Positions 18,280-63,955 of a DNA stretch of 64,000 nt are shown piece after piece. Within the stretch, counting starts at the first letter, position 1; the number at the start of each line of letters is the position of its first letter. A model generated the notes under the pieces. It was not told where the DNA came from. It saw nothing but the letters and a program-made list of their open reading frames with translations, and did no database searches. Both the position numbers and the translations under genes were made by a program. This DNA is from Owenia fusiformis (Eukaryota; Annelida; Polychaeta; Sabellida; Oweniidae), in contig CAIIXF020000010.1 in assembly GCA_903813345.2 (NCBI GenBank), forward strand, positions 8,858,349-8,922,348, read 5' to 3'.

Positions 18280-21200
18280 TCATTCCATGGTTGAAGTTGA
18301 GACAGTATAATCTATGGTAGATGAACCGCCTGGTCCACTCTTTGCTCCAAGTGCAACATCTTCTTCATGGTGGTTGACAGTGAATATTTGTTTCAGTTTT
18401 GAAAGATGTGCAAATGCTCTGAAAAAGAATTTGAACAATATACTTAAATGAATGATTTAATAATAATTAGAACTATTTAACAAGGCATTAACAGGCAAAA
18501 TTTCATCACCTGCCATTTGTTACAGAAGCCGACCACTTAACACCAGGCCACCAAAAGCTGACCACTTAACACTATCCACAAAAAATTGAAGACTAAAACA
18601 ATAGGTCACCACTTCTGATATTGACATAAAAAAACAAACATGTCCAGGAAATTATATTCCAATACATAAAAAATATTTATTGCAATCATATTAATAAGCA
18701 ATATTTAAATGTTTTGTGACATATTCAATTTGGCCCCCATGAGACTTTTCACTGGTCCACATGTGACTTGTTTTAGTCCATTGAATTATGACGTCACAAT
18801 TCGAATATCTTTTGTTATTTGTTTACACAACAATTTTCCAGTTGCCCTGACATCGTGATTACCAAAGAACCAATGAAGCAAAATTATAAACTATGTATGA
18901 CATTACTGATCAAGTGGGGACAAATCTGATTGATCCATGATTTTATCATTTCAGTTGTCCTTTAACCTATACATACAAGGATCATGTACAATTTTACTAT
19001 TAACATGAACACTACTAGATGTTTGTCTTTTTTTGTATATTTAAACTTTTTTCAGCATTTGATTCTTACCTTTCAAGTTTTTCTTTCCCTTGTTCATTAG
19101 AGAAATGTTCTGACTGACTCTCACTATTCTCCACTGAGAAAATGTCCTGCAAGTACATATCATTTCAATATAAAAGGGCAATGTAAATTTTTAATTATAT
19201 ATAGTATAGCCTCTTTGAAACTAATATCAAAAATGAAAGCTTGGCAAAGCTCCTCTCAGTTGACTATGTTTAACAACATTATAAAGTATGAGCCTATAAA
19301 TGTCTTGCCATACTGCACAATACCATACCACAATGTACCATACCGTAGAATACTGTACCTTACTGTACTGTAAATCTACAACAATGTACTCACCATACTA
19401 TATTGTTCACCTCACTAACCATACCATACTTTACACCTACCAAAATGTACCATACTTGTCACGAACCTACTTTACAGTAGCATACCATTCCATAGTGTAC
19501 CTTACATAACGTACCTAATACTCCTCCTTTACAACATCATATTGTACCATACCATACTTAAATTTACCTAACCATACCATACATAACACACCTACTTATT
19601 GTAGCATACCATACTGTTTCATACCAAACCATGACATAACATTCTTTATTATGCACCTCATTAAAATACTCAAATCTGATTGGTTAAGAACTGCAGGGTC
19701 TATTGCCATACGTGGCAGCAAGATCTCGTTCTATCCAGTATTGAAGCAACGAGATCCCTAACCATCCCGTATGCCAGAATACCTATCCTAGAAAAAAATA
19801 CTTTCGACGAGTCCATTTGTCGATGACGTCATTTTCTTAGAATCTTTCCATGTTGAATTTGAGACGAATGCGAGGGAGAAATGATTTGCGTGATATGAGA
19901 CTGAGAAGGGGATTTCTATTCAATTTCCTGTGATTAACTGACAAAAGGTAGGTGGCGCTAGATAAGGCATCGGCCAAACTTATTATATATGGAGGGAATA
20001 CTAAGGCCAAATGAGAGAATAAATGGAATTTTTGATTGTCGAACACCAGGGTTTTTAGAGTATAGGCTCGGCTTCTGTTTTAGTAGACCCATTCTTTAAA
20101 ATAAAGTATTTCTCAAGGGAGGTGCATAATAAAATAAATACTGGATGACCATGAGGTGGATATGCCAGAATACTTATCCTCGAAAAGAAATACTAGGCTC
20201 GGCTTTGCCTCGCCTAGTATTTTTTCCTCGGATAGGTATTCTGGCATATCCACCTCATGGTCATCCAGTATTTGTTTAATACCTTACAGTAACATACCAA
20301 AGTGAAACTTACAATAACATACTGTTCCATATTATACTGCACTGTACTGTGCCTTACCATACCATAACATACCGTACCTAACCATACTCATCTTACCCAA
20401 CAATACCATACTGTAAATCACCTAACCATACCATCAAGTACATCTATTTTACCATATCATATGGTACAATACTATATACTACCATACAAAACTATCAGTT
20501 ATTACACGTTTCAGCATGTGATACGGGAAATATTCCACGAAAGTAAAAAATGTATCACCACGAAAGCGCTGAAATGTGTGATGACGATTTTATCACATAC
20601 TATGAAGAATTTAAGTGATTTGATTGGTAGCTTTCTTTTGACGTTCTACAGTTCCCAACTTCTAGTTCCCCAAATGACGAATTTCGTCATTTCTAAGAAA
20701 TAATAACATAGCCTAAATGTGACGTCATTTTGAATTAGGAAAGAATAGAATGAAGTTGTATGACGTCATTTCTTTACCATAGACAACGTGTGGTATGTGT
20801 GCTCGTATCATATGAAATTTATGTGATACAGGAAATACATCATAGAAAGCAACCAATCAAATCACTAGATTTCTACATAGTATGTGATAATATACCATAC
20901 CATGCTGTACCACTATATAATACCATACCTACACCTATTGTACCATAGCCTACTATTATAAGTAACATAGCCTATATGTGACGTCATTTTGAATTAGGCA
21001 AGAATAGAATGAAGTTGTATGACGTCATTTCTTTACCATAGACAACATGTGGTATGTGTGCTCGTATCATATGAAATTAATAATGCACCTGCTTTTAAAG
21101 GCATACCTTCTGTTTATCAGCAGTGATTGGTTCAATGTCAGCACTGGGATGGGAGGACACATCAAACAAGTTGCCATCAGTTGTGTCAAATGTGGACTGG

Positions 21201-24200
21201 ACATCTTGTAGTTTAAACAGCATCACTTTCAATGCTTCCATAGAACCTGGTTGATCAGTACCACTCAGTCTGGGAGAATAGGTCTGGAAGATAACATAAC
21301 ATAGAGCCTGATTGATCTGTACCACTCAGTCTGGGAGAATAGGTCTGGAAGATAACATAACATAGAGCCTGATTGATCTGTACCACTCAGTCTGGAAGAA
21401 TAGGTCTGGAAGATAACATAACATAGAGCCTGATTGATCTGTACCACTCAGTCTGGGGAATAGGTCTGGAAGATATCACAACATAGAGCCTGATTGATCT
21501 GTACCACTCAGTCTGGGGAATAGGTCTGGAAGATATCACAACATAGAGCCTAATTGATCTGTACCACTCAGTTTGGGAGAATAGGTCTGGAAGATATCAC
21601 AACATAGAGCCTGATTGATCTGTACCACTCAGTCTGGGAGAATAGGTCTGGAAGATATCACAACATAGAGCCTGATTGATCTGTACCACTCAGTCTGGGG
21701 AATAGGTCTGGAAGATAACACAACATAGAGCCTGGTTGATCTGTACCACTCAGTCTGGGAGAATAGGTCTGGAAGATAACATGACATAGAGCCTGATTGA
21801 TCTGTACCACTCAGTCTGAGGGAAAAGGTCTGGAAGGTTACACAACATAGAGCCTTATTGATCTGTACCACTAAGTCTGGGGAATAGGTCTGGAAGATAA
21901 CACAACATAGAGCCTGATTGATCTGTACCACTAAGTCTGGGGAATAGGTCTGAAAGATAACATAATAACATAGAGCCTGACTGATCTGAACTTCTCAGTC
22001 TGGGAGAATAGGTCTGAAAGATAACACAACATAGAGCCTGACTGATCTGAACTTCTCAGTCTGGGGAATAGGTCTGGAAAATAACACAACATAGAGCCTG
22101 ATTGATCAGTACCACTCAGTCTGGGAGAATAGGTCTGGAAGATAACACAACATAGAGCCTGATTGATCAGTACCACTCAGTCTGGGAGAATAGGTCTGGA
22201 AGATAACACAACATAGAGCCTGATTGATCTGTACACTCAGTCTGGGAGAATAGGTCTGGAAGATAACATGACATAGAGCCTGATTGATCTGTACCACTCA
22301 GTCTGGGAGAATAGGTCTTGAAGATAACACAACATAGAGCCTGATTGATCAGTACCACTCAGTATGGGAGAATAGGTCTGGAAGGTTACACAACATAGAG
22401 CCTGATTGATCTGTACCACTAAGTCTGGGGAATAGGTCTGGAAGATATCACAACATAGAGCCTGATTGATCTGTACCACTCAGTCTGGGGAATAGGTCTG
22501 GAAGATAACATAACATAGAGCCTGATTGATCTGTACACTCAGTCTGGGAGAATAGGTCTGGAAGATAACATGACATAGAGCCTGATTGATCTGTACCACT
22601 AAGTCTGAGAGAATAGGTCTGGAAGATAACATAACATAGAGCCTGACTGATCTGTACCACTCAGTCTGGGGAATAGGTCTGGAAGATAACATAACATAGA
22701 GCCTGATTGATCTCTACCACTCAGTCTGGGAGAATAGGTCTGGAAGATAGCATAACATAAAACCTGATTGATCTGTACACTCAGTCTGGGAGAATAGGTC
22801 TGAAAGATAACATGACATAGACCCTGATTGATCTGTACCACTCAGTCTGGGAGAATAGGTCTGGAAGATAGCATAACATAGAGCCTGATTGATCTGTACC
22901 ACTCAGTCTGGGAGAATAGGTCTGGAAGATAACATAACATAGAGCCTGATTGATCTGTACCACTCAGTCTGGGAGAATAGGTCTGGAAGATAGCATAACA
23001 TAGAGCCTGATTGATCTGAACCACTCAGTCTGGGGAATAGGTCTGGAAGATAGCATAACATAGAGCCTAATTGATCTGTACCACTCAGTCTGGGAGAATA
23101 GGTCTGGAAGATATCACAACATAGAGCCTGATTGATCTGTACCACTCAGTCTGGGGAATAGGTCTGGAAGATAGCATAACATAGAGCCTGATTGATCTGT
23201 ACACTCAGTCTGGGAGAATAGGTCTGGAAGATAACATGACATAGAGCCTGATTGATCTGTACCACTCAGTCTGGGAGAATAGGTCTGGAAGATAACACAA
23301 CATAGAGCCTGATTGATCAGTACCACTCAGTATGGGAGAATAGGTCTGGAAGATAACATGACATAGAGCCTGATTGATCTGTACACTCAGTCTGGGAGAA
23401 TAGGTCTGGAAGATAACATGACATAGAGCCTGATTGATCTGTACCACTCAGTCTGGGAGAATAGGTCTGGAAGATAACACAACATAGAGCCTGATTGATC
23501 AGTACCACTCAGTATGGGAGAATAGGGCTGGAAGATAACACAACATAGAGCCTGATTGATCAGTACCACTCAGTATGGGAGAATAGGTCTGGAAGATAAC
23601 ACAACATAGAGCCTGATTGATCTGTACACTCAGTCTGGGAGAATAGGTCTGGAAGATAACATGACATAGAGCCTGATTGATCTGTACCACTAAGTCTGGG
23701 AGAATAGGTCTTGAAGATAACATAACATAGAGCCTGATTGATCTGTACACTCAGTCTGGGAGAATAGGTCTGGAAGATAACATGACATAGAGCCTGATTG
23801 ATCTGAACCATTAAGTCTGGGAGAATAGGTCTGGAAGATAACATGACATAGAGCCTGACTGATCTGAACTTCTCAGTCTGGGGAATAGGTGTGGAAGATA
23901 ATCAAGCTAGGTCATGTGTGAGAACAAGGCATTAATAGGCAAAATGTCACCACCTGCCATTTGTTACAGATGCAGAACATCAACTGCCGAACACCATCCA
24001 CAAACAAAAAAGGTGGAGACTAGAACAATATGTCACCACTTCTGGTGGTGGCATAAAAAGTGATTTATCATTTAGTCTTGTATACAAGATTTACAATAAT
24101 GTTGAAACTATTATACCACTTTATGTTTTAAACATAGGCACTCAGACTTAGACATAAACATGTAAATTGTTGTATTTGGTGATCTCTTGACTTGTACTAA

Positions 24201-27200
24201 CCTTGAATGTTTCATGGGTCTTATACTGATGTTGCTCCATTTTGTCAGGGGTATTGATTGCAGGTGGTTTACTGAAAATAAATAGATGGATATTGATAAA
24301 TCTGGTCACATATAATATTCACATATGATCACATATTACCATTTCTTCAACTTTTAATCTGTAAATATCACAAAATTATAACACAAAATGAAAAGTTACA
24401 AGCCAAATATATTTCAGGAGAAGCTGTTTACAATGCTGCACCTGTGATTGGTCTTCCTTTATTGTTAGATCAGCGCCATAACTGTGCTCTCTTGACGAAA
24501 CGTCATAAAATGGGTTTAACATTGCCATTTGCTGATATTACGATGGACACATTTTCTGCCGCAATCGTTGAGGTCCTAGAAAACCCTCAATACAAGAAAA
24601 ATGCTGTAAAAGCACAGAAGCTGGTTCGGGACCAACCCATCAATGCCACCTATACCATACAGTATTGGTGTGAATACATTATGAAGCACAGGAGCACATC
24701 ACTTGAAATCTACTGCCATGTTTGAACTGAACTTCTTTCAGTACTTCTTGCTGGACATACTACTGCTAGTATTGATCATTGTGGTGATTTTCTTGGCTGT
24801 ACTATATTGCATTATTAAACATTTGGTATTGTATCTTTGCAACTGTAAGTCTCAGAAACTTAAGAAGTCATAAGATATGTAATTCTTATTCAAACATAAC
24901 TAATTCATGCTTTCTATAAACAGTGAACAAATTCAAATTCGTCGAAACAATACCCGGTCTGTACAAAGTGTTTTGTTCAGTGCACCAGAAGTAGGAACTG
25001 TAGTGACGATTTTGCAAAATTTTGGTGAGTTTTCATGTTTGAATCAAAATACCACTTCTGATCAGGTATTATATCAAGTAATAAATACTTCAGGGCTAGA
25101 AACAAAAGCTCTTTCGGTCATTCTGGTACAGAAAATATTTGTACCTAGTCCTGCGGTACTTGTCGATATAGCACCTGCTCTTTGGACTATAGTTCTGAAT
25201 TACAACTCAAAGAAGTCAGTCATGCCACAAGGATTATCTGTCATGCCCAATAGGCAAAAGCTACGCAGAGGAGCAAACATACTGTATTGAAAATGAATAT
25301 AATATATAATACATGTTATTGGAAAATGAAAATGTTGCAATGTTAAAAATTAATTCATCGGTGTTGGATTTCTTAATTAATAGAAGAAGCGTTTCCACCT
25401 TATATGAATATCTGAAATTAAAATGGATGAAAGGTTGTGCAAGGTTTAGATCGTGTAAATTGAATGAAAATATGTGATAAAATCAAATCACAATGCAATT
25501 GTTCATAAATGCAATAATAAATAATGTATGAAAGATTGTACATGTCTCAGTGTCTTCATTGTATATGTATCAGGTTCTTTCTGTTACAAATGTTATGACT
25601 TACTATGTTGTCACAGGTTTCTCCCTTGACAGCAACAGAAAATGTTATGGCTTATATGACAGAAAGTGTTATGGCTAAATATAACATCACAGCTCTCTCT
25701 GATTACAGAAGACTAATAATTTTAATATGCCATAGATTCCTCCCATTACAGGTAATGTTACTTACTATGGTATAGGTTTCTCCCAGGACCGGTCCCCCTC
25801 AAGCACTACAGTCGTGGATGGACTCTCTATTGCTTTCCCACCACCTGAGAAAGTAAATCAAAAATATGTTTGGTCATCTTAGGCCATTCAATGTTAAATA
25901 CTGGTACATGTCAACTCCCTTTACTTCTAGGATTTCGAATTTTCTATAAAATGAACAAAAATTTCTACTTGTAATTATTCAAAATTGTGATTGAAAACTA
26001 CATCTGTTTAAACTTTAGTTTAGTCTTCATTAAAAAGTTTATGTGAACCTAAAGTGGTTGTCATTTTATGGGCATTTATCTATGTACATATATGTTCAGT
26101 TATTTTAACTTGAATATGGTAGATACACTTTATTTGGCTCCTGTTTTAATTTGAAGGATTGGCGGATTCAATGCCAAATTAAAAATCCGTTTTTCAGTTT
26201 GGAATTTTTGTCCAGTGCACTTCAGAAATTAAACCCCAGGGGCCCCTTTACTGATTGTACTACACATAATTTACCCCAACCCCCAAATACAAAAGACTAG
26301 ATGTCCCAAAAAGTAATCTTGATTTTCATCTTTAAATATTCAAAATTGCATACCATGAGTAATGAGGTCTTTAGTAGGTGTTTCTACTCTATATATAATA
26401 TTGTCAGGAGTCTGTAGCTTGTCTGAACCCTGCCTTTCTGGGGGCTGCGTGCCTGAACTCTGCCTGCCAAGAGCCTGCTCTCTCGCCACCCTACAGAATG
26501 CATCCTTATAGGCCAGTTCTATAGTGTTCTCACTCCCTTCCTTAGTGTTATACCTGTCTTTATATTCTGCAAGTTTACTGTTTAACATATAAGGTTCAGC
26601 TGCGATATTTTCTTTATTCATGTATTGCTTTGAAAAGTCAGATCTCGTGTCTCTTGCTTGCACTTGGGATAACAGTTTACTCTCAATTTTACTAGTGGTT
26701 GGTTGAACATCTGAGGTTTTAACTACATTGGATGCTCTGCGGCTAATTCTGTCAATATTTGTTGGCCTTCCATGAGAGGAGCTGAGCAACAGATCATTGG
26801 TATCACCAGATGCCAAAGAGTCACCAAAATGTCTCCTTTTAAAGTTTGATTCTGGTTTGTTATTAGCTATATGTTCAGAGTCTTTGTATTGAGTGTCATA
26901 TGTGTTAGTAAGATCACCTATGCTGAGATCTAATGTTGTGTTGATATAGTCTTTAGACTCAGATATATTGTGTTTCTTTAGTGAATTAAACTTGCTGTTA
27001 GGCCATATTGGTGAGTCTTTGTGGTATGGTGCATACCCCTGTGTTGTACTCTGGATATTAGAGGGGCATATTCTCCCCACCCAGCTAGGAACTTTACCTC
27101 CACTAGAGATCTGATTTTTACTAAGGATTTGCTCCCCTACTTCAGATTCAATATCAGTTTTTGCCATATCATTTACCCAACTTGGAGCTGTGTTGATTTC

Positions 27201-30200
27201 TGATTTGTCTAAGCCATCGATCCAACTTGGAGGAGGTCTTGCACCTTGTTTACTTATATCTTTCTGAATGTTCTTTGCAGACTCTTTACTTTGAGGTTCA
27301 TTATGTAGTCCCCCTGAGATGACTTTCAATGTTGAGATATCAGCTGTGTGGGATTTTGATGACTTTTCAGCTCTTATTACATCAGAGGTACACTTGTCAG
27401 AATGTCTTTCAATATGTGGTGTCTCTGGAGATTTTGTAACATGAAGCTGATTAACCCATGCCCTTATATGGTCTGCATGGTCTCGTTTTGGCACCAGTGG
27501 TGAATCCACCCCTTCAGTAGTCCCAATTTCAGATTTTCCACCCAGCATTTCAATCCAGCTAGGTAAAGGGTGTCCCTCATTGGCGGCTAACTGCTGTACT
27601 CCAGTGATAACTGTCTCCAGGTCTGAACCCTCTAGATCAGCTATCCAAGATGGAGGGGTACGGCCACCTTTTAGTGCCTCTTCTAAAATAGTCTCTATAG
27701 CTGAATGATCTAAATCTTCAATCCAACTTGGTGGCTTGCGACCCTTGGGCCCAGTTGTTGGACCAAGTCTGGTGAGTGGAGAACTACCAGTGTTAATTAT
27801 TGTAGATTCTATGTCAGATCTTACCAAGTCTCCTATCCAACTAGGAGCTAGATGCCCTTCACCTGAATGATCTACAGTGTGAGATGTATTTTTCATATGT
27901 GGCTTCATATCCCTTGAATATGTTGTAGAGTTGTTTGTGGGTTTATTGCTTGAATATTTACTGTCTGAGTTGAACAAACTACAGCTGTGTCTAAGAAAAC
28001 TGGAATTGTTGTCTCTAAAACTAGAATCATTGTGCCTTGGGACACTGGAGTTGTTGTGTCTCAAACTAGAATCATTGTGTCTCAGGACACTGGAGTTATC
28101 GTGTCTCAAACTAGAATCTTTGTGTGTCAACCTCAAATCATTGTGTCTCAAGCTTTCTTTATGTGTCAAACTCGAATCATTGTGCCTCAAGCTAGAATCA
28201 GTGTGTCTTAAACTGTCATCACTATCTCTGCTTCCATTAGAGCCATAACTCTCGTACATTGAGTGAAAAGATGAAACTCCATTGTTAGAATCATCTTGTC
28301 CCTGTTTTCCATATCTTTGTCCATTAGTATCTTGTGTCCTTCTTGACTTTTTATAGCCATATACATGACTGGATGTCCTCTTTGAAGATTCTCTTTGTTT
28401 AGGCCTCAGATTTACAGCATCATTGTGGGCTAGAATGGTATCTGATTGAGGCCTATATGTATTGTGTCGCTCTAAGTTTGTACCATGTTGATCCAAATGT
28501 GCATTTTGTTGCCCCTGATGTGTATAATGATGCCCAAGGAGTAGATCAGTGCAGCTAGAGGAGAGAGAAGGTTGGGCAGAGGCACTGGGGAGAGAGGAGA
28601 GATCCACTGTAACATCAGTTAATAGCTTGGATGATGAAGCTACAGCATCTTTCACTAGAATACAGAAAAATATTTTTAAGGACAAAATGAAATTTTAATG
28701 TGAAATAAATTAATTGTGAGGGCCTTTTGAAATGCAAAATGGTCGTTTGAAGTGGCATTGATTTACTTTGGAATGGTAAAAAATATTGGATGCAATATTG
28801 CTAAATAGTCAATATTTTCTGACTTGTCTTGCAATCACATCACACCTCTGAACACAAAACAGTTTAGATTCCATTCAATACTATAGTACTAGAACATAAT
28901 TTTGCAAACTGGGGACCACTGTCATGGATGTGTTCACCCTCAAAATAAAATGATAATTGCTAACCTTCTTTTCTCTTTTTTTCTTCATTCAATAAGGTGT
29001 CGTGTGATCGGTCAATCATCTGCCGAAGTTCATAAAGCCTTTCCTCCTATAATTAAGTAATCATATTAACACTTTCGACATGAATATAAGAGGAAAATGT
29101 TGGCCATGTTGACGGATAGTTAAGAACGGTTTTAGGTAAAAACTGGAAAAGACGTATACCCGGGACCTATACTTTAAATTTTATCACTAAAATACTATTT
29201 TTAATAAGCATTATCACATGTCAACAACTTGTCAAAATTTGGTATAAAAATACTGAATAGAACTGGAGATATTGTCATTTCATTGATGTATGTAAATAAG
29301 GATAGTGGTGCCAAAAGGAGCCTATCGTCCTGAATGGTATTACGTAATAGGGCTCCATATGGAGCCTATCGTCTTGAAAGGGTTAAATGTACATTCTAAT
29401 GGTACAGCAAACCTGTCATATAGCGAACACCTCATACTATTTTGGTTTCTGTATAGATTACCCTCTCTGTACCTACCAACACTGAGCATTTTTTCTCAGC
29501 AAAAAAATGTTCAATATATACACAGGTTTTACTGTATTTCACATCACATAGTCCTCACAACTTCAAACATCACGTTATTAGGAATCTCAAAATAGTATTC
29601 CATATTTGTGACTCGTTCTGTTATACCTATCAACATGAAAAGTATTTTTGATTTCGGAAAATTAGAACATCTCCAATGGGGAAAAGGACTGGCTGTGATT
29701 TGTGAAAGACTGGAAGGGGGTGGTGGTTATTATAAAACTTATAGAAAAGTTGAATTTCATGACATACCTTAGCTGTGTGCCTGGTCCCTGTTTGTAAAGA
29801 TCTTTCTGCAGTTAGCTGTAGTGGAGATTTAGGAATAATCAGATCATTGACATCTCGATAATAGTGCTGTCTAGGGGTTGGCCCATCTGCAGTGGTAGGC
29901 CTACTTTTTAGAGTAGATCCCCCTCTTGGAGTCCGACCACCTGAGGCTCCGTGTGTCCCATCAATCTTAAGGCTGGTATTAAAAACCCTATTAGATGAGT
30001 GGCCAAATTGATTGGTGCCACTTCTTTGAGCAACAGGGGTTGAGATGGGTCCCTGTGAATGTTCAAAATGATTGATGTAGGCATTGAGGGCCGCTGAAGC
30101 AGAGTTGAAGCTCTGGTCCTCTACATGATAACCACTGGTGTCCATATTGTTATGAGGGATGGAGAGATTCACTGTGCTAGAGAATATACGACGTCCTGAT

Positions 30201-30223
30201 GGCCCAACTTGTGGGGAGAACAT
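18280..30223 (-). CDS. Large low-complexity protein with PSW(I/V) repeats, 8 exons
   Basis: Minus-strand exons in transcript order: 30223-29768 (ATG), 29046-28965, 28654-26354, 25844-25766, 24271-24202, 21246-21107, 19146-19070, 18418-18280 (TGA), about 1,115 aa. Phases agree except at 24202/21246, where the best donor (AAG|GTTAGT) leaves the next exon one base out. Using the donor four bases on (GTTA|GTACAA) restores the frame; a missed exon is the alternative. The protein is mostly polar and probably disordered. Exon 2 is charged and helical (EERLYELRQMIDRSHDTL). The 2.3 kb exon encodes about 12 SSLRHNDS-type repeats, then seven short PSW(I/V)xx(L/M) repeats, for example PPSWIEDLDHSAIET. 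I do not recognise the family. The 5' UTR exon appears to start near 30248 after an acceptor (CATTTCAG). Confidence 0.75.
18480..18640 (+). repeat. ~140-bp dispersed repeat with 'gtcaccacttctggtg' end, copy 1
   Basis: Runs from 'caaggcattaacaggcaaaa' through 'cacctgccatttgttacaga' and 'aacactatccaca' to 'ggtcaccacttct...gacataaaa'. Related copies are at 23925-24060, 34300-34725 (internally expanded), and in reverse at about 56318-56440 and 57157-57288. Non-coding, possibly a SINE or MITE. Confidence 0.65.
18690..18965. repeat. Dispersed short element, copy 2
   Basis: Collinear with 8690-9090 over about 270 bp, including 'ttttgttatttgtttacaca' and 'tttcagttgtcctttaa', with clear divergence. 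Lies in the last-but-one region of the large minus-strand gene (intron between exons 7 and 8). Confidence 0.7.
19290..20480. repeat. Cryptically simple ACCATACC-rich DNA with embedded inverted repeats
   Basis: 19300-19640 and 20280-20475 are strings of 'accatacc', 'taccatac' and 'tgtacc'; 20885-20955 resumes this. Between them (19640-20280) is an insertion-like block with 'ttattatgcacctc' at its left end and 'gaggtgcataataa' near 20120, and the hairpin at 20136-20273. No gene. Confidence 0.6.
20136..20273. repeat. Near-perfect palindrome of about 138 bp
   Basis: 'atactggatgaccatgaggt' at the left returns as 'acctcatggtcatccagtat' at the right. The arms continue through 'ggatatgccagaatac' and 'tactaggc' to a loop around 'tcggctttgcctcg'. 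Arms are about 60 bp with few mismatches, so the strand can fold into one long hairpin. Confidence 0.9.
20490..20890. mobile_element. Palindromic element with TGACGTCA motifs, copy 1
   Basis: 'cacgtttcagcatgtgatac', 'ggaaatattcca', 'gtgtgatgacgattttatca' and a far end 'accaatcaaat...tatgtgataat' also occur in this order at 45665-46170. Ends resemble each other in inverted orientation ('gtgatac.ggaaata'). Confidence 0.65.
20702..21078. repeat. 118-bp direct duplication carrying CRE-like palindromes
   Basis: 20702-20818 and 20962-21078 are nearly identical (differences such as aaatg/tatg and aacgtg/aacatg) and 143 bp separate them. Each contains TGACGTCA twice, giving four perfect 8-bp CRE/ATF consensus sites within 330 bp. 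The second copy ends about 30 bp from minus-strand exon 6 at 21107. Confidence 0.85.
21239..23900 (-). repeat. Minisatellite, ~61-bp unit, about 44 copies, anchored on a 3' splice site
   Basis: Unit on + strand: 'catagagcctgattgatctg' 'taccactcagtctgggagaa' 'taggtctggaagataacataa', with length variants from 'ggagaata'/'gggaata' and 'accactc'/'acactc'. A 61-bp period with no stops keeps all three minus frames open, which explains the many overlapping open frames; I do not regard them as genes. The first unit overlaps the first eight bases of minus-strand exon 6 and its acceptor (ATCAACCAG|GTTCTATG), and later units repeat a similar ATCAATCAG|GCTCTATG. Confidence 0.95.
23925..24060 (+). repeat. 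~140-bp dispersed repeat, copy 2
   Basis: Same order as the copy at 18480: 'aaggcattaataggcaaaat', 'ccacctgccatttgttacag', 'caccatccacaaa', 'tcaccacttctggtggtg'. It directly abuts the end of the 61-bp minisatellite. Confidence 0.7.
24418..24873 (+). pseudogene. UDP-glucuronosyltransferase C-terminal exon relic
   Basis: Begins right after an acceptor-like 'atatatttcag'. The first frame reads GEAVYNAAPVIGLPLLLDQ, the end of the UDP-sugar-binding signature, then a YKKNAVKAQKLVRDQP helix and YWCEYIMKH, as in UGT C-termini. Near 24690 the frame shifts: the remaining conserved part (GAHHLK, then FFQYFLLDILLLVLI as the transmembrane anchor and a short basic tail KSQKLKKS) continues in another frame to TAA at 24873. 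No other UGT exon is visible on the + strand nearby, and it lies antisense in an intron of the large minus-strand gene. A duplicated, broken fragment is most likely; a sequencing error in a real last exon with distant upstream exons is the alternative. Confidence 0.8.
24907..25290 (+). CDS. Unrecognised 127-codon open frame
   Basis: A stop-free frame of this length is unusual in such AT-rich intronic DNA. The product is polar with hydrophobic patches (APALWTIVLNY) and shows no motif I know. It starts 30 bp after the UGT relic on the same strand and could be part of the same transposed fragment, a decayed mobile-element ORF, or chance. AATAAA-like motifs follow near 25515. Confidence 0.25.
   Translation: MLSINSEQIQIRRNNTRSVQSVLFSAPEVGTVVTILQNFGEFSCLNQNTTSDQVLYQVINTSGLETKALSVILVQKIFVPSPAVLVDIAPALWTIVLNYNSKKSVMPQGLSVMPNRQKLRRGANILY
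29066..29386. mobile_element. TTAA-flanked short element (piggyBac-like MITE)
   Basis: TTAACACTTTCGACATG at the left and, in reverse complement, TTAACCCTTTCAAGACG at the right are imperfect inverted repeats, each bordered by TTAA. 321 bp with no recognisable protein. It sits in intron 1 of the large minus-strand gene, 20 bp upstream of exon 2. Confidence 0.6.
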
Positions 30224-35983: not shown

Positions 35984-38900
35984 ATGGCTAAAGATTCTAT
36001 AGATGTTGATGGTATTATGATGGCAGAATATGATGGCATGTACTGGCCACGATTCTGGCCTCGGAGCAGACCCCCTAAAAGCAACATGAACTGGGAAGAA
36101 TGGCATAGAGAGGTGCAGAAAATGCCATGCAGAGAGGATGATGTATGGACTGTTAGCATGCCAAAAGCAGGTGAGTATAAAATGTTTTTTTTTATCTAAT
36201 GCCTCCACCTAGGTGGATATCCACCTAACCATTCACCATGCAGGGTCTAAGCCTCTGGCTCTGTCATTATTGATTATTACATGCACTGCTTCATATGAAA
36301 ATACTGTGTTCGGATTGGCTGGAATCTGACACACCTTACCTAGCTATATGTGAATGTATTACATACCCAGCGAAGCATTTGTATTGAAGTCAATGGAGCT
36401 GAAGGTCGGCTATATATTCCTGTATAGCCACCAAACCTTTTACCATGACAATCTTATGACATCATGGGGACGTCATGTTTCATTTCTTCCTAATTTCACT
36501 CGCACACAGACACGTGGCGTCATTGATATAACGTAGCCATGATATAAAAGTATGTAATACAACAGTTATGTCCCAGGCCCGTAGCCAGGGGGGGTTCGCA
36601 GGGTTCGGGCGAACCCCCCCCTGGCCAAAAATTCTTTCAAAATCATGCAGTTTTTGACCATTTTGAGCACGTCTCAAGTGATTTTAGCCTAATTTGGGCC
36701 AAAATTGTCAAATGTGAACCCCCCCTGGAAATTTTTGAAAATTGAAACCCCCCTTGGCAAATCCTGGCTACGGGCCTGTGTCCGTATCATTGAATATATG
36801 CCTTCGGTCTGTCGTAATATAACCCTCGCAAGCTCGGGCTATATTGGTGACAGACCTTAGGCATATATTCAATGATAGGGACATAACTGCTAAATATTTT
36901 TGTTGTCGTTAAGTTAGTATAGTTCTTCTGAAATGAGAACATTGTTTTCTTCAAAACTATCCTCCATTATATGTTACAGGTCTTCATTGGTCTAGCCAGA
37001 TCCTGCACATGTTAATGACAGGAGATACAGAAGTAAGGTATGCTGAAACACATTTCTTTGAATTCAACACCCCTGCAGAGACCACTGCTCAGAGCTCTCC
37101 TAGGCTCATACAAACACACATACTACCAAAGTACATGCCAAAAGATGTATGGAGTAAGAAAAACAAGATTTTGCTGATTTTGCGTAATCCGAAAGATCAA
37201 CTTGTATCTTTCTATCATCATATAAGATCTTCAGAAAAATTGAAAACAGAGGATGATGGCATCAATAGATTCTATCAACGGTTTGTCAATAAAACATGTA
37301 AGTAGCACATGATGATGTCATTATTGGGTCACTGAGTGATCTGTCATGTTTTCTGTCAACTATGAGATTGAAGTTAATGAAATAAAATGGAAATTCCTCT
37401 CGTGAATTTTAATAGGAGAATCAAAATAATCTGGATTGTTTTCTCGCAAAAATTATGTTCTGTACATAAAGTGTTGCATACCTGACCTGTCATGTGAAAA
37501 AATAAAAATTTGAATATTTAAAAAAATAAAAATGAGAAGAATTCATTTTTTTAAATCAGGAGAAAATTGGGTCACCTTATTATGAGTTGTCAAGGGTATA
37601 ATATAATATCCTTCAAATATACTTAGATATTGACCCTTGACCTTGATATGACCTGAAGCAATATAGCATTGACCTTGACCTCTGGTCATCTACCCTATCA
37701 TTAACTGGCTAAGGGTCATAGCATGCCCCAATTAAGGTCCTTTAACTCATTGGCGCGTTATTTAATTATTTTTAAAAGCTACTGAGCGTTAATTAATTTA
37801 TTAAGGATTAGGATTTTCATGCCTACCAATTTGAAAGTGACATAAAATCTAAACCAACAGAGATAACACCACCAAATTTTTACTCATGATTAGAAACATA
37901 TGTATAAATCATATGTCAATGTATGAACTCATCACAATGAGAGGCACTGATGATAAAAAATCCTAAACATGTATATTACAAAAAAACATAAGAACCCTAC
38001 TAAATATTACCTTGGTGTACCCCAGCAGATTCACTGGCCTGTCCCCCAGCCACAGAGTTGTCAGGCCCATCATCGTTTTGAAATTTCATTTTCTGAGGCT
38101 TCAAATATTAGGCTTCACTTCAAGAATCGCTGAATATAGCAGCGATTTGATCATCATTACCCAGTCTAAATCGAGCGCTTTTTAAGTACCACAATGTCTG
38201 ATCACTTCCAGATTCGTATTTATTTTGAAATAAAGCAATAAATGACCAAAATAATTTTTTTCAATCATTTCTCTTCGCCAAATCAATTTTAAATCACTTC
38301 CGGTCAATGTGAGTACCGAACATTGGCACTGTAATACTAGGGCGACATCTTTCTAAGTCTGTTAAAACTTCCCTATAGCCTGGCGACCTGAAGTCGACAT
38401 ACGCCATGAAGCGTATTGGCGAAAAAAGTCGACTGAGCGCGCGAAAGAGTTAAATACCAAATACTTAGATGTTGACATTTGACTTTCAAATAACCTTGAC
38501 CTATTAACATTGACTTTGACCTCAAATCACCTAATCATTAGTCGCTAAGGGTCACAGCAGCTCTAAGGACCCTAAATCACTAAACCCTAGATACTGGCAT
38601 TTGACCTTGAAATGACATTGACCTCAGGTCAACTTATGGGATACAACAGCTCCAAATGCATAAAACCATACCAAGATATTGACCTTTTAATCACCTTGAA
38701 ACATAATGTTGACCTTGACCTCACCTCTCAAGGTCCCTAATTATGGGACGTCAATGGCCACAGCACAGATCAAGAATCTTTCAAAGCCAAACACCTGGAT
38801 TTTGACATTTACCTTCTTGGTATGACCTTGACCTCTGATATTTGTAGAATGCACCCTGACCCACTTTGTAAGTTGACCAAGTATGAGGGCCCAAGTTCGA

Positions 38901-41894
38901 ATGGTCTAGGAGTCAAGTCAGTCAGACAGAACAATGGTTCATAGTTAGATTTATAGTAAGACAAAGATTTTAAGGTAGTTTTACATGGGGATGAGCAGTT
39001 AAAAATTTATTTAATAAAGATTTGACAGGTATGTTATAGTGACTAAGAACAAATTTTGAGTTTCAAAGTGAAAATTTCTGAGTCAAATTGAAAAAGAATA
39101 TCTTTGTGAAAGAAAGACATTCCTAAAGATCCCAAATTTTCTCCAAAGCCTCAAATTTAATGTCTTCTCATACAAGTTAAATTCAACAGATGTTGTACAT
39201 GTGTACTTTTTTCTGATGTTCTAGTGCCTTATGGAGACTTCTTTGACTTCTATGATCTTTGGTGGAAAAAGTTCAAAACATGTGACCATGTAAAGCTTGT
39301 TACATACGAGCAATTAAAAAAGGTAAAGGAGAACATGCTGTGAAAACCAGTTAATTAAAGACACATTTTTAATAATCTGTTTTAGTAATGATTAAGGATA
39401 CTCTCTCGATGATCCTACCTATAATTTTCAATTTTTGCTTTATCTTGTAATTCCAAGTTCAATTAGTATCTTAATTTTTAGGAGTTTATCAAAACAGTCA
39501 GAGATATAAGTGAGTTCTTAGGTAAACCAATAACAGAAGATTTCCTGGAGAAGATGGCACATGTTTGTTCCATAGAAAACATGCAAAAGAACAAAGAAAT
39601 TCTTGATACACCAGATATATGGGAGGATGAAAAAGGCACAATGTATAGAAAAGGTATAATGGCCCCTGCAGTCTAAAGTGCATGATGCTAGAAATTTAAA
39701 ATGGCAGTCATACTTTTAATTAAAATTGTTGTTAACTTTATTTTTTCCAATTTATTGTTCTAAAACTAGTAAAAGTATGACAATTAAGTCAGTCCAAAAT
39801 AGACATCGATCTCAAAAAAGACAAAAATAAATAAGAAAGGGATTATCTCATAATCCATTTTTCATGTTTTTTTTATTTTTTCTTCTTGGAGATCAATTAT
39901 ATAATATCCCGCCGATTTTTTTGTACATTAATCATATCAAAAAATGTTGATTTTGTGCCAGATATATGACCTCAAATTTTTGTTTTTTGGATTATCCTAA
40001 TCCCAAAGGAGACTCACTTTTCCTTTTCAGAGGTAAATCATGACTAATAGAACATATCAATTTAGTTGTAAAAAATTGGAATAAAATGCTGCATTTTTGG
40101 TGAAAATTGGCTCACAATAGGGGAAAATTGGTAATGATGGGTGGATTAATGACAGCTTTACATATTTGTTTTTGTGGTCAAATAATTATTAAAACTTAAG
40201 TAAGAGCTGTCTAAAAAAGTTTGCAATAACTTAACTACGTCCTACTTGCCTTTTTGCTTTTTAAAACAATATAGCTTTTCTTCATTTTTTTAAAATCTAT
40301 AGATTGTTCAGATAGGCTACATTTAGGGGGAGAGTGTCAATCTAATATTTAATTAATTTGATTTCTGCACAACAATAAAACCTGGTCCTTTATAGTACAG
40401 AAATCAGGAACAACAATATTTAAGAAATCTCTCAGAATTGCTGCTACAGTTTGAACATTAGAAATAATGAAACTAGAAAAACAGCAACTCCATGGAGTAG
40501 CAAATCCTACCGAACAAAACATATTATGCGTGAAAATGTTGAAATGACGTGCACTTTGTGATAGAAGCATGAAATTTGGCACAAAGTTAGTTTATACCAT
40601 TGTGAACTAGGCATCATCATATAAAATTTGAACCAAATCCGTTCACTGGTATATGAGTTATCAAAGATTACGTTTTTTACGAATATGGGCCGCCATCTTG
40701 AAATTCAGCTGCCATCTTGAAAATTATTTCTTGAACAGAGCTACTGTGTCCCTAGGCATAATCATATAAAATTTCAAACAAATCTGTTCACTGGTATTTG
40801 AGTTATCAAAGATTAGGTTTTTTACGAAAAATTGCTGCCATTTTGAAATTAAGCAGAAATCTTGAAAATGTTTTGTCGAACATAGCTACTGTGTCCCTAA
40901 GCATCATCATATAAAATTTGAACCAAATCTGTTCACTGGTATTTGAGTTATCAAAGATTACATATTTTTACGAAAAATGGCTGCCATTTTGAAATTAAGT
41001 GGCCATCTTGAATATCTCTTTTTGTGCGATACTCCTTTGTCCCTAGGCATCAGCATATAAAATTTGAACCAAATCCGTTCACTAGTATAGGAGTTATCAA
41101 AGATTACGTTTTTTACTAATACGGGCCGCCATCTTGAAATTCAGCCGTCATCTTGAAAATTATTTCTTGAACAGAGCGACTGTGTCCCTAGGCATAATCA
41201 TTCATATAAAATTTCAACCAAATCTGTTCACTGGTATTTGAGTTATCAAAGATTACGTTTTTTACAAAAAATTGCCGACATTTTGAAATTAAGTGGCCAT
41301 CTTGAAAATGTTTTGTCGAACATAGCTACTGTGTCCCTAAACATCACCATATAAAATTTGAACCAAATCCATTCACTGGTATTTGAGTTATCAAAGATTA
41401 CATATTCTTACGAAAAATGGCCGCCATTTTGAAATTAAGCAGCCATCTTGAAAATCTCTTTTTGTGCGAAACTCCTTTGTCCCTAGGCATCAGCATATAA
41501 AATTTGAACCAAATCCGCAAACTAGTATTTGAGTTATTAAAGATTACATTTTTATGAAAAATGTCGGCCATTTTGAATTCAGTGGCCATATTGAAAATTC
41601 CTTCTCGAGCAGAGGTCCTACTATACACCCATAAGGCATAAGCCCATAAAATTCGAATCAAATCCGTGAAATGGTATTTGAGTTATCGCCCGGACAAACA
41701 GACGGACGGACGGCTTTCCTATATCCCTCTCGAACTTCGTTCAGTGGGATAATAAATAAATTTGAGTTTTTATTGTTTCAGGTCAAGTGGGTGACTGGAA
41801 GAATCACTTCACAGTTGCAACAAATGAACAGTTTGACAAAATTATACAGGAGAGAGTCAACAAAGACTGGGACTTTAAGATCATATATGAATAA
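35984..41894 (+). CDS. Cytosolic sulfotransferase (SULT family), tandem copy 1, 5 exons
   Basis: Transfers sulfate from PAPS to hydroxyl or amine groups of small molecules; cytosolic, with no signal or membrane segment. Exons 35984-36170, 36980-37297, 39225-39322, 39482-39653, 41782-41894 (TAA) give 295 aa, the usual SULT length. Visible motifs: 5'-phosphosulfate loop PKAGLHW (canonical PKSGTTW, so both Thr are replaced while Lys is kept), catalytic His in SPRLIQTH, 3'-phosphate site RNPKDQLVSFYHH, C-terminal RKGQVGDWKNHFT, and the KxxxTVxxxE dimer motif (KNHFTVATNE). The loop is preceded by SM here but TF in copy 2. The ATG chosen gives MAKDSID; upstream GTG codons are 5' UTR. All intron phases equal those of copy 2. 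Substrate is unknown. Confidence 0.93.
36562..36893. mobile_element. Palindromic element interrupted by a nested insertion
   Basis: 'cagttatgtcc' at the left matches 'gggacataactg' at the right. The arms continue 'atcattgaatatatgcc' and 'ggcatatattcaatgat' with 'ggtctgtc'/'gacagacc' and a loop 'ctcgcaagctcg'. The left arm is split after 'tgtcc' by the element at 36575-36777, and 'tgtcc' is repeated on the other side as a likely target-site duplication. Lies in intron 1 of the first sulfotransferase. Confidence 0.75.
36575..36777. mobile_element. Short TIR element, 'ggcccgtagccagg' family, copy 2
   Basis: Inverted ends 'aggcccgtagccagg' and 'cctggctacgggcct'. The interior shares 'aatcatgcagt', 'tgattt' and 'aacccccccttggc' type blocks with 755-931. 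203 bp, non-coding, with sharp ends and a 5-bp duplication, so it is the younger copy. Confidence 0.85.
37620..38880. repeat. Degenerate TGACCTTGACCT-rich region
   Basis: In intron 2 of the first sulfotransferase, 'gaccttgacct' and variants occur more than a dozen times (37630-37690, 38470-38880), spaced by phrases like 'ggtcacagca' and 'taccaaatacttagat'. It is a decayed tandem repeat, split in two by the element at 37742-38453. Confidence 0.7.
37742..38453. mobile_element. TTAA-flanked element (piggyBac-like), 712 bp
   Basis: TTAACTCATTGGCGCG at the left and, reading inward from the right, TTAACTCTTTCGCGCG form inverted ends bordered by TTAA. It interrupts the TGACCTTGACCT repeat region. 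No transposase is visible inside, so it is non-autonomous. Confidence 0.65.
40606..41700. repeat. Tandem array, ~146-bp unit, 8 copies with trimeric higher order
   Basis: Units start at about 40610, 40756, 40901, 41047, 41192, 41341, 41487 and 41635, each holding 'ataaaatttgaaccaaatc', 'ggtatttgagttatcaaaga' and 'tggccgccattttgaaatt'. Units 1/4, 2/5 and 3/6 resemble each other most (for example 'tttcttgaacagag', 'ttttgtcgaacatagc', 'ctctttttgtgcga'), so a ~437-bp trimer was duplicated. It ends with 'cggacaaacagacggacgga', a tail common in invertebrate retroelements. Lies in intron 4 of the first sulfotransferase. Confidence 0.9.
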
Positions 41895-43997: not shown

Positions 43998-46900
43998 ATG
44001 GCTAAAGATTCTGTAGATGTTGATGGTATTATGATGGCGGAATATGATGGCATATACTGGCCCCGATTCTGGCCTCGGAGCAGACCTCCTAAAAGCAACA
44101 TGAACTGGGAAGAATGGCATAGAGAGGTGCAGAAAATGCCATGCAGAGAGGATGATGTATGGACTGTTACCTTTCCCAAAGCAGGTGAGTATAAAATTGG
44201 GCCTAAAAATAATTTTTGAGCCAAAACTTGTTCCTCCCCACATGAATATTATTAAATTGCAAGCTGGTAACTATTCTTTTAATTTTGAGCCTATTTCTTA
44301 TGAAAGGAGAACAGAAAGTAGCAACATATTTCAAACAGTCATATGTCATGTATGTTGAATTTTGTATGTTTTCTGAGGATTTAAACAGGTACATATGTTA
44401 GGTCAATGCAATACCTACAGGTAACTCATAAAGATGATAAGATAATTTGGACTTTGAGACAGGGAACTTTAACAACCCACACACCTGTTTTTCTTAAATG
44501 TTGTCCTCAGATTTTCAACCCCTTCCACCCCTGGTTTTTTAACTACATGTATTGTTGCATCAATATGTTGCGTTTTGAGACACAGTTAACAAATCCTTTT
44601 AAAGGAATAAGTATTTTTTGGATACATTTAGTTAAAAGTAAAGTGGAAAACAATATTTCTAATGTTATTTTCCCATACAGAAAACTAGTGTGATCCATTG
44701 CTTTCAGCTTAACTTTGGTTACCCATAATGGATATCTTTAAAATCCCTGAAGGAATTACTTATTCCTTTATATTAAAGGGGCTAACTGCACAATGCAACT
44801 TCATCTCTATGAGTGCTTTTTCTGGAGTCAGTGCATTGGACTAACATATGCACATGCTTAAATCCTAACAAAATAGCCAAAATCCAACATGACTATCCAA
44901 AATCTGTTGGGATACTTTCCATCCTCCTTTGGCCTAAAATTTCAAAATTGGGGCCGAACATTTTTAACTCCCATCTTGATTTTCAGGGCCCTTCCTGCAA
45001 GGGGTGTGGAGGAGGGTGACATGTTCCCTGAATCAGTACAACTATGCTTTAAAGTTCTATTTTTGAATTTTCACTATTATATTTTGACATGATATTTTTT
45101 GCAGAACAGTTTTCTTTGAAAATTATTCTATAATATATACGCTACAGGTCTTCATTGGAGTAGCCAGATACTGCACATGTTAATGACCGGAGATACAGAA
45201 GTAAGAAATGCTGAAACACATTTCTTCGATATGAACACCCCAGCAGAGACCACTGCCCAGAGCTCACCTAGGCTCATACAAACACACATGCCAATAAACT
45301 ACATGCCAAAAGATGTATGGAGCAAGAAAAGCAAGATTTTGGTGATTTTGCGAAATCCGAAAGATCAACTTGTATCTTTTTACCATCATATAAGATCTTC
45401 AGAAAGAATGCAAGCGGGAGATGAAGGCATCAATAGATTCTATCAACGCTTTGCAGATAAAAAATGTAAGTATCACCCTAGATGATGTCATTATTGGGTT
45501 ACACTGACCTGGGTTTGTAGTGCGTTCTGTCAACTATAAGATTAAAGTAAATGATGGTGTGAATTTTAACATGAAAATCACATTAAACTGAATTGATTTC
45601 AAGGAGAATTGGCTTCCAAGGAGGTAACTCAATATTCCATATTTGGGTATCATTTAGTCAATTATTATCAGTTGTCACACGTTTCAGCATGTGATACAGG
45701 AAATATTCCATGAAAGGTAATATTGTGTCATCCACGAAAGCGAAGCTTGAGTGGCGATATATTTTTACCCAAATGGAATATTATTTCCTGTATCACATAA
45801 GCTGAAACGTGTGATGACGATTTTATCACATGTCTTGGAATGTTGAATTGAAGCATTTTGATTTGGTCATTATAATTGTGTTTAGTACTCTGTACTCCTG
45901 GTAACTATTATAATTTTGTGTGTTTTGAAAGTTTGCTTTGAAATAATATGATGTCATACTGTTGAATTCATACTTGTTAGTGAAATAATATGACGTCATA
46001 CTGTTTTCTTTAGCTACGAAGTGATATAATCAGAGATGTCATATCCTTACTATTGACTCCTTAGTAATACAGCCCACCGTGTCACATGAAAATTTGTCAG
46101 GTGTCATGTGATACAGAATATACGTTGTCACAATTGACCAATCAAAATGCTTAGAAACTCGTAACCATGTGATAATATGAAATACAAATGTCAAAATCAC
46201 GAATATCAGCCATTCTCCTTGCAGCTGTAGAAATATACCGGCACAATAGTATTTATTGCATCACATTGGAGAATAAATAATTTAGAGTCCCTGGCTTCCA
46301 ATCCTCTTTGGGTTAATCTCAAGCAACTTGCACATTCAGTGTTACGATTAGGAACAATATTCTGAGTTTCAGAATGAACATTTCTGAGTCCAATTGAAAA
46401 AGAATATATTTTTTCTAATGTTCCAGTGGGTTATGGAGACTTCTTTGATTTCTATGATCTTTGGTGGAAGAAGTCAAAAACATGTGACCATGTAAAGCTT
46501 GTTACATATGAACAGCTGAAGAAGGTAATAGAGAACATGCTGTGGAAACTGGTAATGCCTCAGTAACATTTGATCTGCACTGCCAATCTCAAACAGCATC
46601 AAACAGCGCTTTTATGAAACAGTGCTAGCAGTACTGTGCATCGCTGTTTTCAAAAACAGTACTGTACAGCGCTGTAAAAACTGTACTAAACTAAACTGTA
46701 CAATTAAAACAGGTGATGCGAGAATAGCATTATACATCACTCAAACTGCACCGGTGATGTTGCGGATTGGGGGTATATAGCAATGGTACAGGGGCTGTAG
46801 CTTCCCAAAATCAAGAGAAATATGCAACATAAGATATAGAGATACGCAGTATGATGTAGATTTTCTATATCAATTTGTGAACCTACGGTCAAGTTTGGTT

Positions 46901-63216: not shown

Positions 63217-63955
63217 TTTTCAAAACGGGCACATTCTACCAAAAGTGTCATTAGACAGTGTGCAATGCTTATAATATTCACATACCAAATATGAACAAAA
63301 TCGCTCCACTACTTTTCGAGTTATAGTAAAAAACGTTAAAATGGCGGCCATTTTGAAAAATGGCCGCCTTCTACCAAAAGTGTCATTAGACAGTGTGCCA
63401 TGCTGATACGTATTCACGTACCAAATATGAACAAAATCGCTCCACTACTTTTCGAATTATAGTAAAATAAGTTAAAATGGCAGCCATTTTTCAAAATGTC
63501 CGCCATTTTTCAAAATGGCCGCCTTCTACCAAAAGTGTCATTAGACAGTGTGCCATGCTTACAGTATTGACATACCGAATATGAACAAAATTGCTCCACT
63601 ACTTTTCGAGTTATAGTAAAATACGTTAAAATGGCGGCCATTTTGAAAAATGACCGCCCTCTACCAAAAGTGTCATTAGACAGTGTGCCATGCTTATACG
63701 TATTCACATACCAAATATGAACAAAATCGCTCCACTACTTTTCGAGTTTTAGTAAAATAAGTTAAAATGGCAGCCATTTTTCAAAATGTCCGCCATTTTT
63801 CAAATCCGCCTTCTACCAAAAGTGTCATTAGACAGTGTGCCATGCCTATAGTATTCACATACCAAATATGAACAAAATCGCTCCACTACTTTTTGAGTTA
63901 CAGCAAAAATCGTAAAATAACGAGTAAAGGCCGCCATTTTTCAAGATGGCTGCCA
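63217..63955. repeat. Tandem array with alternating dimer units and ggccgccatttt motifs
   Basis: Five units of about 135-160 bp: 'ctaccaaaagtgtcattaga', 'cagtgtgccatgct', 'accaaatatgaacaaaatcg', 'ctccactacttttcgagtta', then one or two 'tggcggccatttt' blocks. Units 1 and 3 end '...cggccattttgaaaaatg', units 2 and 4 end '...cagccatttttcaaaatgtc' with an extra block, so the array is built of dimers (about 290 bp). Likely intronic to SDHAF4. Confidence 0.9.

Follow-up and report, generated by a model that had tools for sequence, protein, structure and literature searches.

Minisatellite-like tandem duplications of intron-exon boundaries, termed mirages, have received little study and have been described in amphioxus, in Adh3 and in the globin genes BflGb6 and BflGb9 (PMC3087553). 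Either end of an exon can be copied, many of the copies retain the AG or GT, and the copies undergo concerted evolution; reverse transcription-PCR analysis suggested that amphioxus mirages are spliced regularly. Variable repeats at exon-intron boundaries are considered a possible cause of new introns (PMC2812944). Here, we describe a minisatellite of 44 units on the minus strand of contig CAIIXF020000010.1, located in a 64,000-nt stretch (positions 8,858,349 to 8,922,348 of the contig), which is referred to as the window. The minisatellite overlaps the boundary between intron 5 and exon 6 of a LAS2-like gene. The array is probably a mirage, formed by tandem duplication across this boundary and subsequent expansion, in which the exon-proximal copy is used and the decoy copies leave with the intron.

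Anatomy of the array

Analysis of the window with Tandem Repeats Finder (TRF) revealed a minisatellite at positions 21239-23901 with a period of 61, 43.9 copies, and 93% matches. This confirmed the array, its coordinates, and the approximately 44 copies that an earlier note on this DNA had reported. Splitting of the array on the minus strand and alignment of the resulting pieces gave 44 units, comprising 43 decoys and one copy joined to exon 6. The 61-bp unit of the earlier note corresponds to the TRF period, but the units are not uniform, the decoys having lengths of 61 nt (23 units), 60 nt (19 units), and 64 nt (1 unit). Given the gene model described below, the intron contributes 11 nt to a unit and the exon 45 nt, and the remaining 5 nt are filler. 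The features of the junction are as follows.

21239..23901, minus strand: minisatellite, 44 units of about 61 bp (TRF, unit alignment).
21284..23901, minus strand: portion of the array within the intron, comprising 43 decoys, of which 42 have an intact acceptor AG (unit alignment).
23842..23901, minus strand: outermost unit, which adjoins the native intron and is the sole unit without the acceptor AG (CCAC; unit alignment).
23902..24201, minus strand: 300 nt of unique intron 5 sequence, presumably representing the ancestral intron (gene model).
21284..21294, minus strand: true acceptor TTATCTTCCAG, phase 0 (gene model, site scoring).
21107..21283, minus strand: exon 6 (177 nt, phase 0 to 0), overlapping the last array unit by its first 45 nt (gene model).

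The low edge of the array (21239) is exactly the 45th base of exon 6. The overlap of the array with the start of a minus-strand exon, as the earlier note had proposed, was borne out by comparison of the exon copy with the array consensus, to which 42 of the 45 exon nt are equal. This identity by itself excludes an overlap of array and exon by chance. The exon copy is in frame with the protein and departs from the consensus by three changes, of which two are synonymous; the changes of the exon unit are rare or absent among the decoys. The authentic copy is joined to the body of exon 6, and the extra copies stand outside it. The mean per-column divergence of the decoys from their consensus was 4.4% in the unit alignment, and 34 of the 64 alignment columns were invariant among the decoys. 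The 43 decoys comprise 35 distinct sequences and contain 17 singletons, of which one is located in the outermost unit and three are inserted bases of one unit. When a probe of two units was compared with the 498-Mb genome, all of the 25 listed matches fell in the array; this search scores the best candidates only, and weaker copies may occur elsewhere.

The single assembly and the error-proneness of long arrays would be in line with an assembly artefact affecting the copy number or the whole array. Such an artefact is hardly credible, given the 35 distinct sequences among the 43 decoys and the similar arrays at other loci. It is also highly improbable that the array arose first, as an intronic minisatellite, and that exon 6 later acquired its start, including the protein segment TYSPRLSGTDQPG, by recruitment of the last unit. 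The exon/array junction alone gives no direction. Against recruitment stand the protein frame of the exon copy, the two synonymous differences among three, and the presumed human LAS2 sequence, which aligns through the segment. Furthermore, the other sampled junction arrays (six junctions in five exons; see below) are located at exons with matches to kinase or myosin family models, and these exons are presumably older than their arrays.

Gene model and position of the acceptor

The host gene was modeled on the minus strand as eight GT-AG exons with end phases of 0/1/1/2/0/0/2 and 1126 open codons. Exons 1, 3, 5, and 6 were derived from open frames and splice signals, and exon 8 was recognized by its likeness to the presumed human protein sequence. 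Candidate exons in gaps were scored with splice matrices and with codon usage trained on 1297 codons of the window, exons 1 and 3 included. In each of the three phase-mismatched gaps, the top-scoring candidate (29046-28965, 25844-25766, and 19146-19070) had both required phases. The remaining parts of the model, together with two positions relevant to the choice of the acceptor, are given below.

29768..30223, minus strand: exon 1, coding part, with the ATG at 30223 (open frame).
28965..29046, minus strand: exon 2 (82 nt; top-scoring candidate in the gap).
26354..28654, minus strand: exon 3 (2301 nt; open frame, gene model).
25766..25844, minus strand: exon 4 (79 nt), joining exons 3 and 5 in phase (top-scoring candidate in the gap).
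24202..24271, minus strand: exon 5, ending in phase 0 (AAG/gttagt; gene model, coding score).
19070..19146, minus strand: exon 7 (77 nt; top-scoring candidate in the gap).
18280..18418, minus strand: exon 8 with the stop codon (gene model).
21247..21248, minus strand: AG chosen as the acceptor in the earlier note, out of phase in the model (stop after five codons).
21326..21328, minus strand: TGA within the first decoy, closing the frame of exon 6 upstream (frame scan).

The C-terminal part of the model was aligned with what we take to be the C terminus of human LAS2 (C18orf54), and 51 of 159 residues were identical (pairwise E value of 1e-12). A Pfam analysis of the exon pieces and the full model gave no informative match. 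Because the human sequence is presumed and the family is unconfirmed by Pfam, the gene is named LAS2-like only. A genome search with the peptide encoded by exons 5 and 6 placed all of the 24 listed matches in its own locus, with no paralogue among the best candidates.

In this model, the phase-fitting acceptor is TTATCTTCCAG/ACC, with exon 6 starting at 21283. This site lies 37 nt upstream of the AG selected in the earlier note, which had placed the acceptor at ATCAACCAG/GTTCTATG and the exon start at 21246, so that only 8 exon bases would be copied. An acceptor at that position needs an upstream phase of 1, whereas exon 5 ends in phase 0, and translation would stop after five codons (...THETFK/VLWKH, then stop). 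With a generic acceptor matrix, the site scored 4.1 bits, compared with 6.6 bits for the 21283 site. In addition, the alignment with the presumed human LAS2 covers the residues encoded upstream of that AG (LSG...G), which a start at 21246 omits. The AG itself is present, and skipping of exons 4 and 5 would leave exon 3 in phase with it. A start at 21246 nevertheless has next to no likelihood, and in the model the unit contains 45 nt of the exon instead of 8 nt.

A further AG would start exon 6 at 21269 (CTCCCAG/ACTGAG) and scored 8.4 bits, compared with 6.6 bits for the model acceptor. This AG is out of frame in the model and could be used in phase only if exon 4 were omitted and the less coding-like frame of exon 5 applied. 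The resulting chain is phase consistent too (exon 3 ending in phase 1, exon 5 running from phase 1 to 2, and an acceptor of phase 2). However, the exon 4 candidate clearly outscores all others in its gap (25.7 versus 16.0 for the runner-up) and fits both phases, the coding score of exon 5 is 7.2 in frame A versus 2.4 in the alternative frame B, and the presumed human protein aligns through exon 4 and frame A of exon 5. We therefore consider it very unlikely that exon 4 is not real and that exon 6 starts at 21269. Because all three AGs are within the unit, the acceptor is copied by the array whichever of them is used. The interpretation as a mirage would stand even with the 21269 acceptor, since this AG is retained in 38 of the 43 decoys (alignment column 24).

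Three further repeats or open frames were observed in the LAS2-like gene. Exon 3 contains coding repeats (27986-28214, minus strand) with TRF periods of 21, 45, and 39, all of which are multiples of 3 and preserve the frame, unlike the 60/61-nt units of the junction array. In intron 6, near exon 6, a direct repeat of 119 nt (20704-20822 and 20963-21081) is 97% alike. Intron 4 contains, in antisense orientation, an open frame (24300-24725, plus strand) that matches Pfam UDPGT (5.6e-16) and corresponds to the C-terminal part of a UDP-glucuronosyltransferase; it may be a fragment of a gene or may belong to a different gene as an exon.

Decoy acceptors

The earlier note had concluded that an intron-exon boundary was amplified and that dozens of decoy acceptors were thereby placed upstream of the true one. 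This is right, and the case is stronger than stated there, as the true acceptor is copied together with its local context. Only the outermost unit has lost the acceptor AG, which the other 42 of the 43 decoys retain. At the mean column divergence, 39.3 intact AGs would be expected, and the probability of at least 42 is 0.11. There is no sign that decoy AGs were purged or were kept beyond the neutral expectation; selection against decoy AGs found no support in the same counts. The loss of the outermost AG would be suggestive of selection against the copy with the native branch site (1 of 43 units), but edge units diverge anyway, and such selection is not claimed.

From -25 to +3, six of the 43 decoys are identical to the true site, and 30 of the 42 scored decoys equaled or exceeded the true site with the generic acceptor matrix. 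Local sequence thus gives the spliceosome little basis for distinguishing the sites. The suggestion that the array is tolerated because the exon side reads GTT in place of GCT does not hold, as the site concerned is not an acceptor in the phase-consistent model and six decoys do not differ from the true site. Nor do the units lack stops, as had been supposed: a TGA is present in one unit frame, and the exon 6 frame is closed by the TGA at 21326-21328. In the model, splicing at any of the 43 decoy positions, the AG-less outermost unit included, would lead to an early stop located over 50 nt upstream of the last junction. Early stops are to be expected whenever the unit length is not divisible by 3 and are not evidence of function.

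These results bear on the possibility that the decoys are used often enough to matter. In that case, mRNAs with early stops would be destroyed and the array length would act as a rheostat of gene output, or exon 6 would be skipped in frame. The stops at 43 of 43 positions and the 30 of 42 decoys with scores at least equal to that of the true site are consistent with such use, and skipping of exon 6 (177 nt, phase 0 to 0) would preserve the frame, leaving 1067 codons. On the other hand, the stops are what such unit lengths yield by default and hence give no evidence of design, and the decoy AGs were neither purged nor specially kept. The regular splicing suggested for amphioxus mirages (PMC3087553) likewise argues against it. 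Decoy use of this extent is the chief alternative but appears unlikely.

Recurrence of junction-copying arrays in the genome

Two samples of exons were analyzed for similar arrays. The first comprised 40 short kinase exons of 129 matches, picked from a table before inspection of the sequences; the second comprised 40 myosin exons of 84 matches, taken roughly in list order, with near neighbors and most of one exon cluster omitted. ABC transporter matches and 25 higher-scoring kinase loci (L007-L031; TRF only) were left out of the junction count. Junctions were placed by splice matrices with one exon per locus, and 154 of 160 could be placed (78 kinase and 76 myosin junctions). After inspection, the placements at L061 and L106 were adjusted manually before hits were finally counted; both were already hits beforehand. 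Among the other junctions, placements were checked by eye in six pieces and in L110. A hit was defined as a 40-nt junction-spanning window for which a copy with 80% identity or more occurs within 800 nt.

Tandem copies were found for 6 of the 154 junction windows (3.9%; 95% confidence interval, 1.4 to 8.3). The hits comprised four junctions in 3 of the 40 kinase exons and 2 of the 40 myosin exons.

L036 acceptor (kinase): 86-bp unit.
L036 donor (kinase): 71-bp unit.
L046 donor (kinase): 54-bp unit.
L061 acceptor (kinase): 51-bp unit.
L106 acceptor (myosin): 32-bp unit, 27 copies.
L110 acceptor (myosin): 260-bp unit.

The array at L106 (4-865, exon oriented) adjoins a myosin motor exon; its 32-bp unit with ATTGTATTTCAG/ATGCAACCCATTC occurs 27 times, including the true copy, and 20 of 20 intact decoys in the analyzed piece lead to a stop. 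At L036 (725-1406), the acceptor of a kinase exon is copied in 86-bp units (3.8 copies), and the donor of the same exon is duplicated as part of a 71-bp unit; all three acceptor decoys lead to a stop, as does the donor decoy. Stops were also found for the four acceptor decoys at L061 (4/4) and, in the exon frame, for both of the two further acceptors at L110. The single donor copy at L046, located at +54 with an exact GTAAGTA, is in frame and open. A second array was observed at L106, with 26-bp units (1033-1525) starting about 10 nt past the last exon base (1023).

For comparison, intron windows at six fixed distances gave 63 hits in 924 (6.8%), and exon-inner windows gave 2 in 154, both from arrays already counted. 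By Fisher's test, the p value was 0.21 for junction versus intron windows and 0.005 for exon-inner versus intron windows. Twenty of the 63 intron hits are located beside the six hit junctions; the introns beside the other 148 junctions gave 43 hits in 888 (4.8%), against which the p value for the junctions was 0.84. The p values are rough because the intron windows are mutually dependent. An enrichment of arrays at junctions was rejected in both comparisons. These results indicate that junction-copying arrays are a recurrent type in a minisatellite-rich genome and do not form preferentially at junctions. Duplications at junctions are tolerated more like those of introns than those of exons, and the survival of junction-spanning duplications is not clearly lower than that of intronic duplications. 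Extrapolation from 6 of 154 would mean that thousands of exons may carry ladders of decoys. Some of these might be length-tunable sinks into early-stop mRNAs, the array length then being a heritable, perhaps somatic, dial of output, a notion that we regard as doubtful.

Other features of the window

The GC content per 2 kb of the window ranged from 0.29 to 0.43 and was mostly near 0.35. An XPA zinc-finger exon was detected at 54959-55064 on the plus strand (Pfam XPA_N, 2.9e-10); it is directly followed by an array of 76-bp units (55066-56179), which starts from intron base +2. This array was rejected as a copy of the donor, as the sole GTGAGC in it is the real donor and the copies read ATGAGC (13) or ATGATC (1). 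Two similar open frames at 36937-37305 and 45120-45485 (plus strand), the first of which matches Pfam Sulfotransfer_1 (1.7e-19), possibly represent a small sulfotransferase cluster. Two arrays at 40607-41687 (units of about 145 bp) and 63234-63908 (about 136 bp) share common motifs such as ATGGCCGCCATTTT or ATGGCAGCCATTTT and perhaps belong to one repeat family.

Discussion

We propose that a segment of about 56 nt, comprising the 3' end of intron 5 together with the first 45 nt of exon 6, was tandemly duplicated and that ordinary repeat turnover would have expanded the duplication to 44 units. The copy adjoining the exon body would have remained the working acceptor, and the 43 upstream copies, being intronic, would be removed with the intron. 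Splicing would choose the exon-proximal copy probably because, when paired with the 5' splice site downstream, this copy yields the shortest exon. Because of this presumed choice, the decoys would be nearly neutral, which may be the reason why junction duplications survive. The mechanism is most likely passive, with the selection step inferred.

Several points weigh against this interpretation. In human ABCA7, some retention of one unit of a variable number tandem repeat (VNTR) occurs and leads to an early stop, and in-frame skipping of exon 19 rises with VNTR length (PMC5954066), both of which speak for an effect of decoys. The AG with the exon start at 21269, 14 nt inside exon 6, outscores the model acceptor. 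No yTnAy motif was found from -50 to -12 of the true acceptor or of 34 of the 43 decoys. Two such motifs lie in the native intron, 42 and 29 nt before the lost acceptor position of the outermost unit, and with this native branch-site context beside the outermost unit a strict rule of the first AG after the branch point would favor the decoys. The count of 44 units rests on one assembly. Concerning the identity of the gene, Pfam LAS2 (PF15792) matched neither the exon pieces nor the full 1126-aa model, and a profile search with this family gave no match in the same genome; 14 control genomes were silent as well. The presumed human C-terminal fragment also had no Pfam LAS2 match.

The choice of one AG among many has mostly been studied with few competing sites. 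The 43 decoys, with a local context nearly identical to that of the real site, constitute a natural test of this choice, and RNA reads across such ladders would weigh exon proximity against the first AG after the branch point. If the decoys are ignored, this would explain how a genome can fill with such arrays; if they are used, the array length becomes a source of expression differences. Our sample suggests that many more exons of this kind exist and that mirages occur more broadly than in amphioxus.

Comparison with known systems revealed that the array has the anatomy of a mirage: given the gene model, its unit contains an intron end and an exon start, the authentic copy is located at the exon, and 42 of 43 decoys retain the AG. 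Amphioxus BflGb6 has 3 and 6 units in two haplotypes, compared with 44 units here, in a different gene and probably in a different host. As in the array described here, the repeat of the 25-bp VNTR in ABCA7 intron 18 includes a real splice site, and retention of one unit shifts the frame, with an early stop as the decoys would give in our model; however, the human VNTR is on the donor side, and its units begin at the GT and have no exon share (PMC5954066). The 31-bp VNTR of CBS, c.1444_1467+7(16_21), has 16 to 21 copies of a unit that, judging from its coordinates, spans an exon end and an intron start; unlike the unit studied here, it is on the donor side and shorter (PMC2630376). For CBS 844ins68, which has two copies only, the more distal site is described as strongly favored; the text of the paper speaks of a donor, and the title of the Romano 2002 reference cited there names a 3' splice site.

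An acceptor-copying array with tens of units was not found in our literature search, in which coverage of subscription papers was thin. Introns reportedly also originate from tandem arrays whose repeats supply the splice sites, in work by Zhuo from 2007. In that case, as in the ITR-driven intron changes described in PMC2812944, a new intron is formed, whereas here an old intron was enlarged. An origin of intron 5 from the array, with both splice sites supplied by units, was rejected, as its donor (24201) is located 300 nt outside the array. The mirage kind is already known from amphioxus; what is new here is the number of decoys, a controlled estimate of frequency, and the probable occurrence in a host other than amphioxus.
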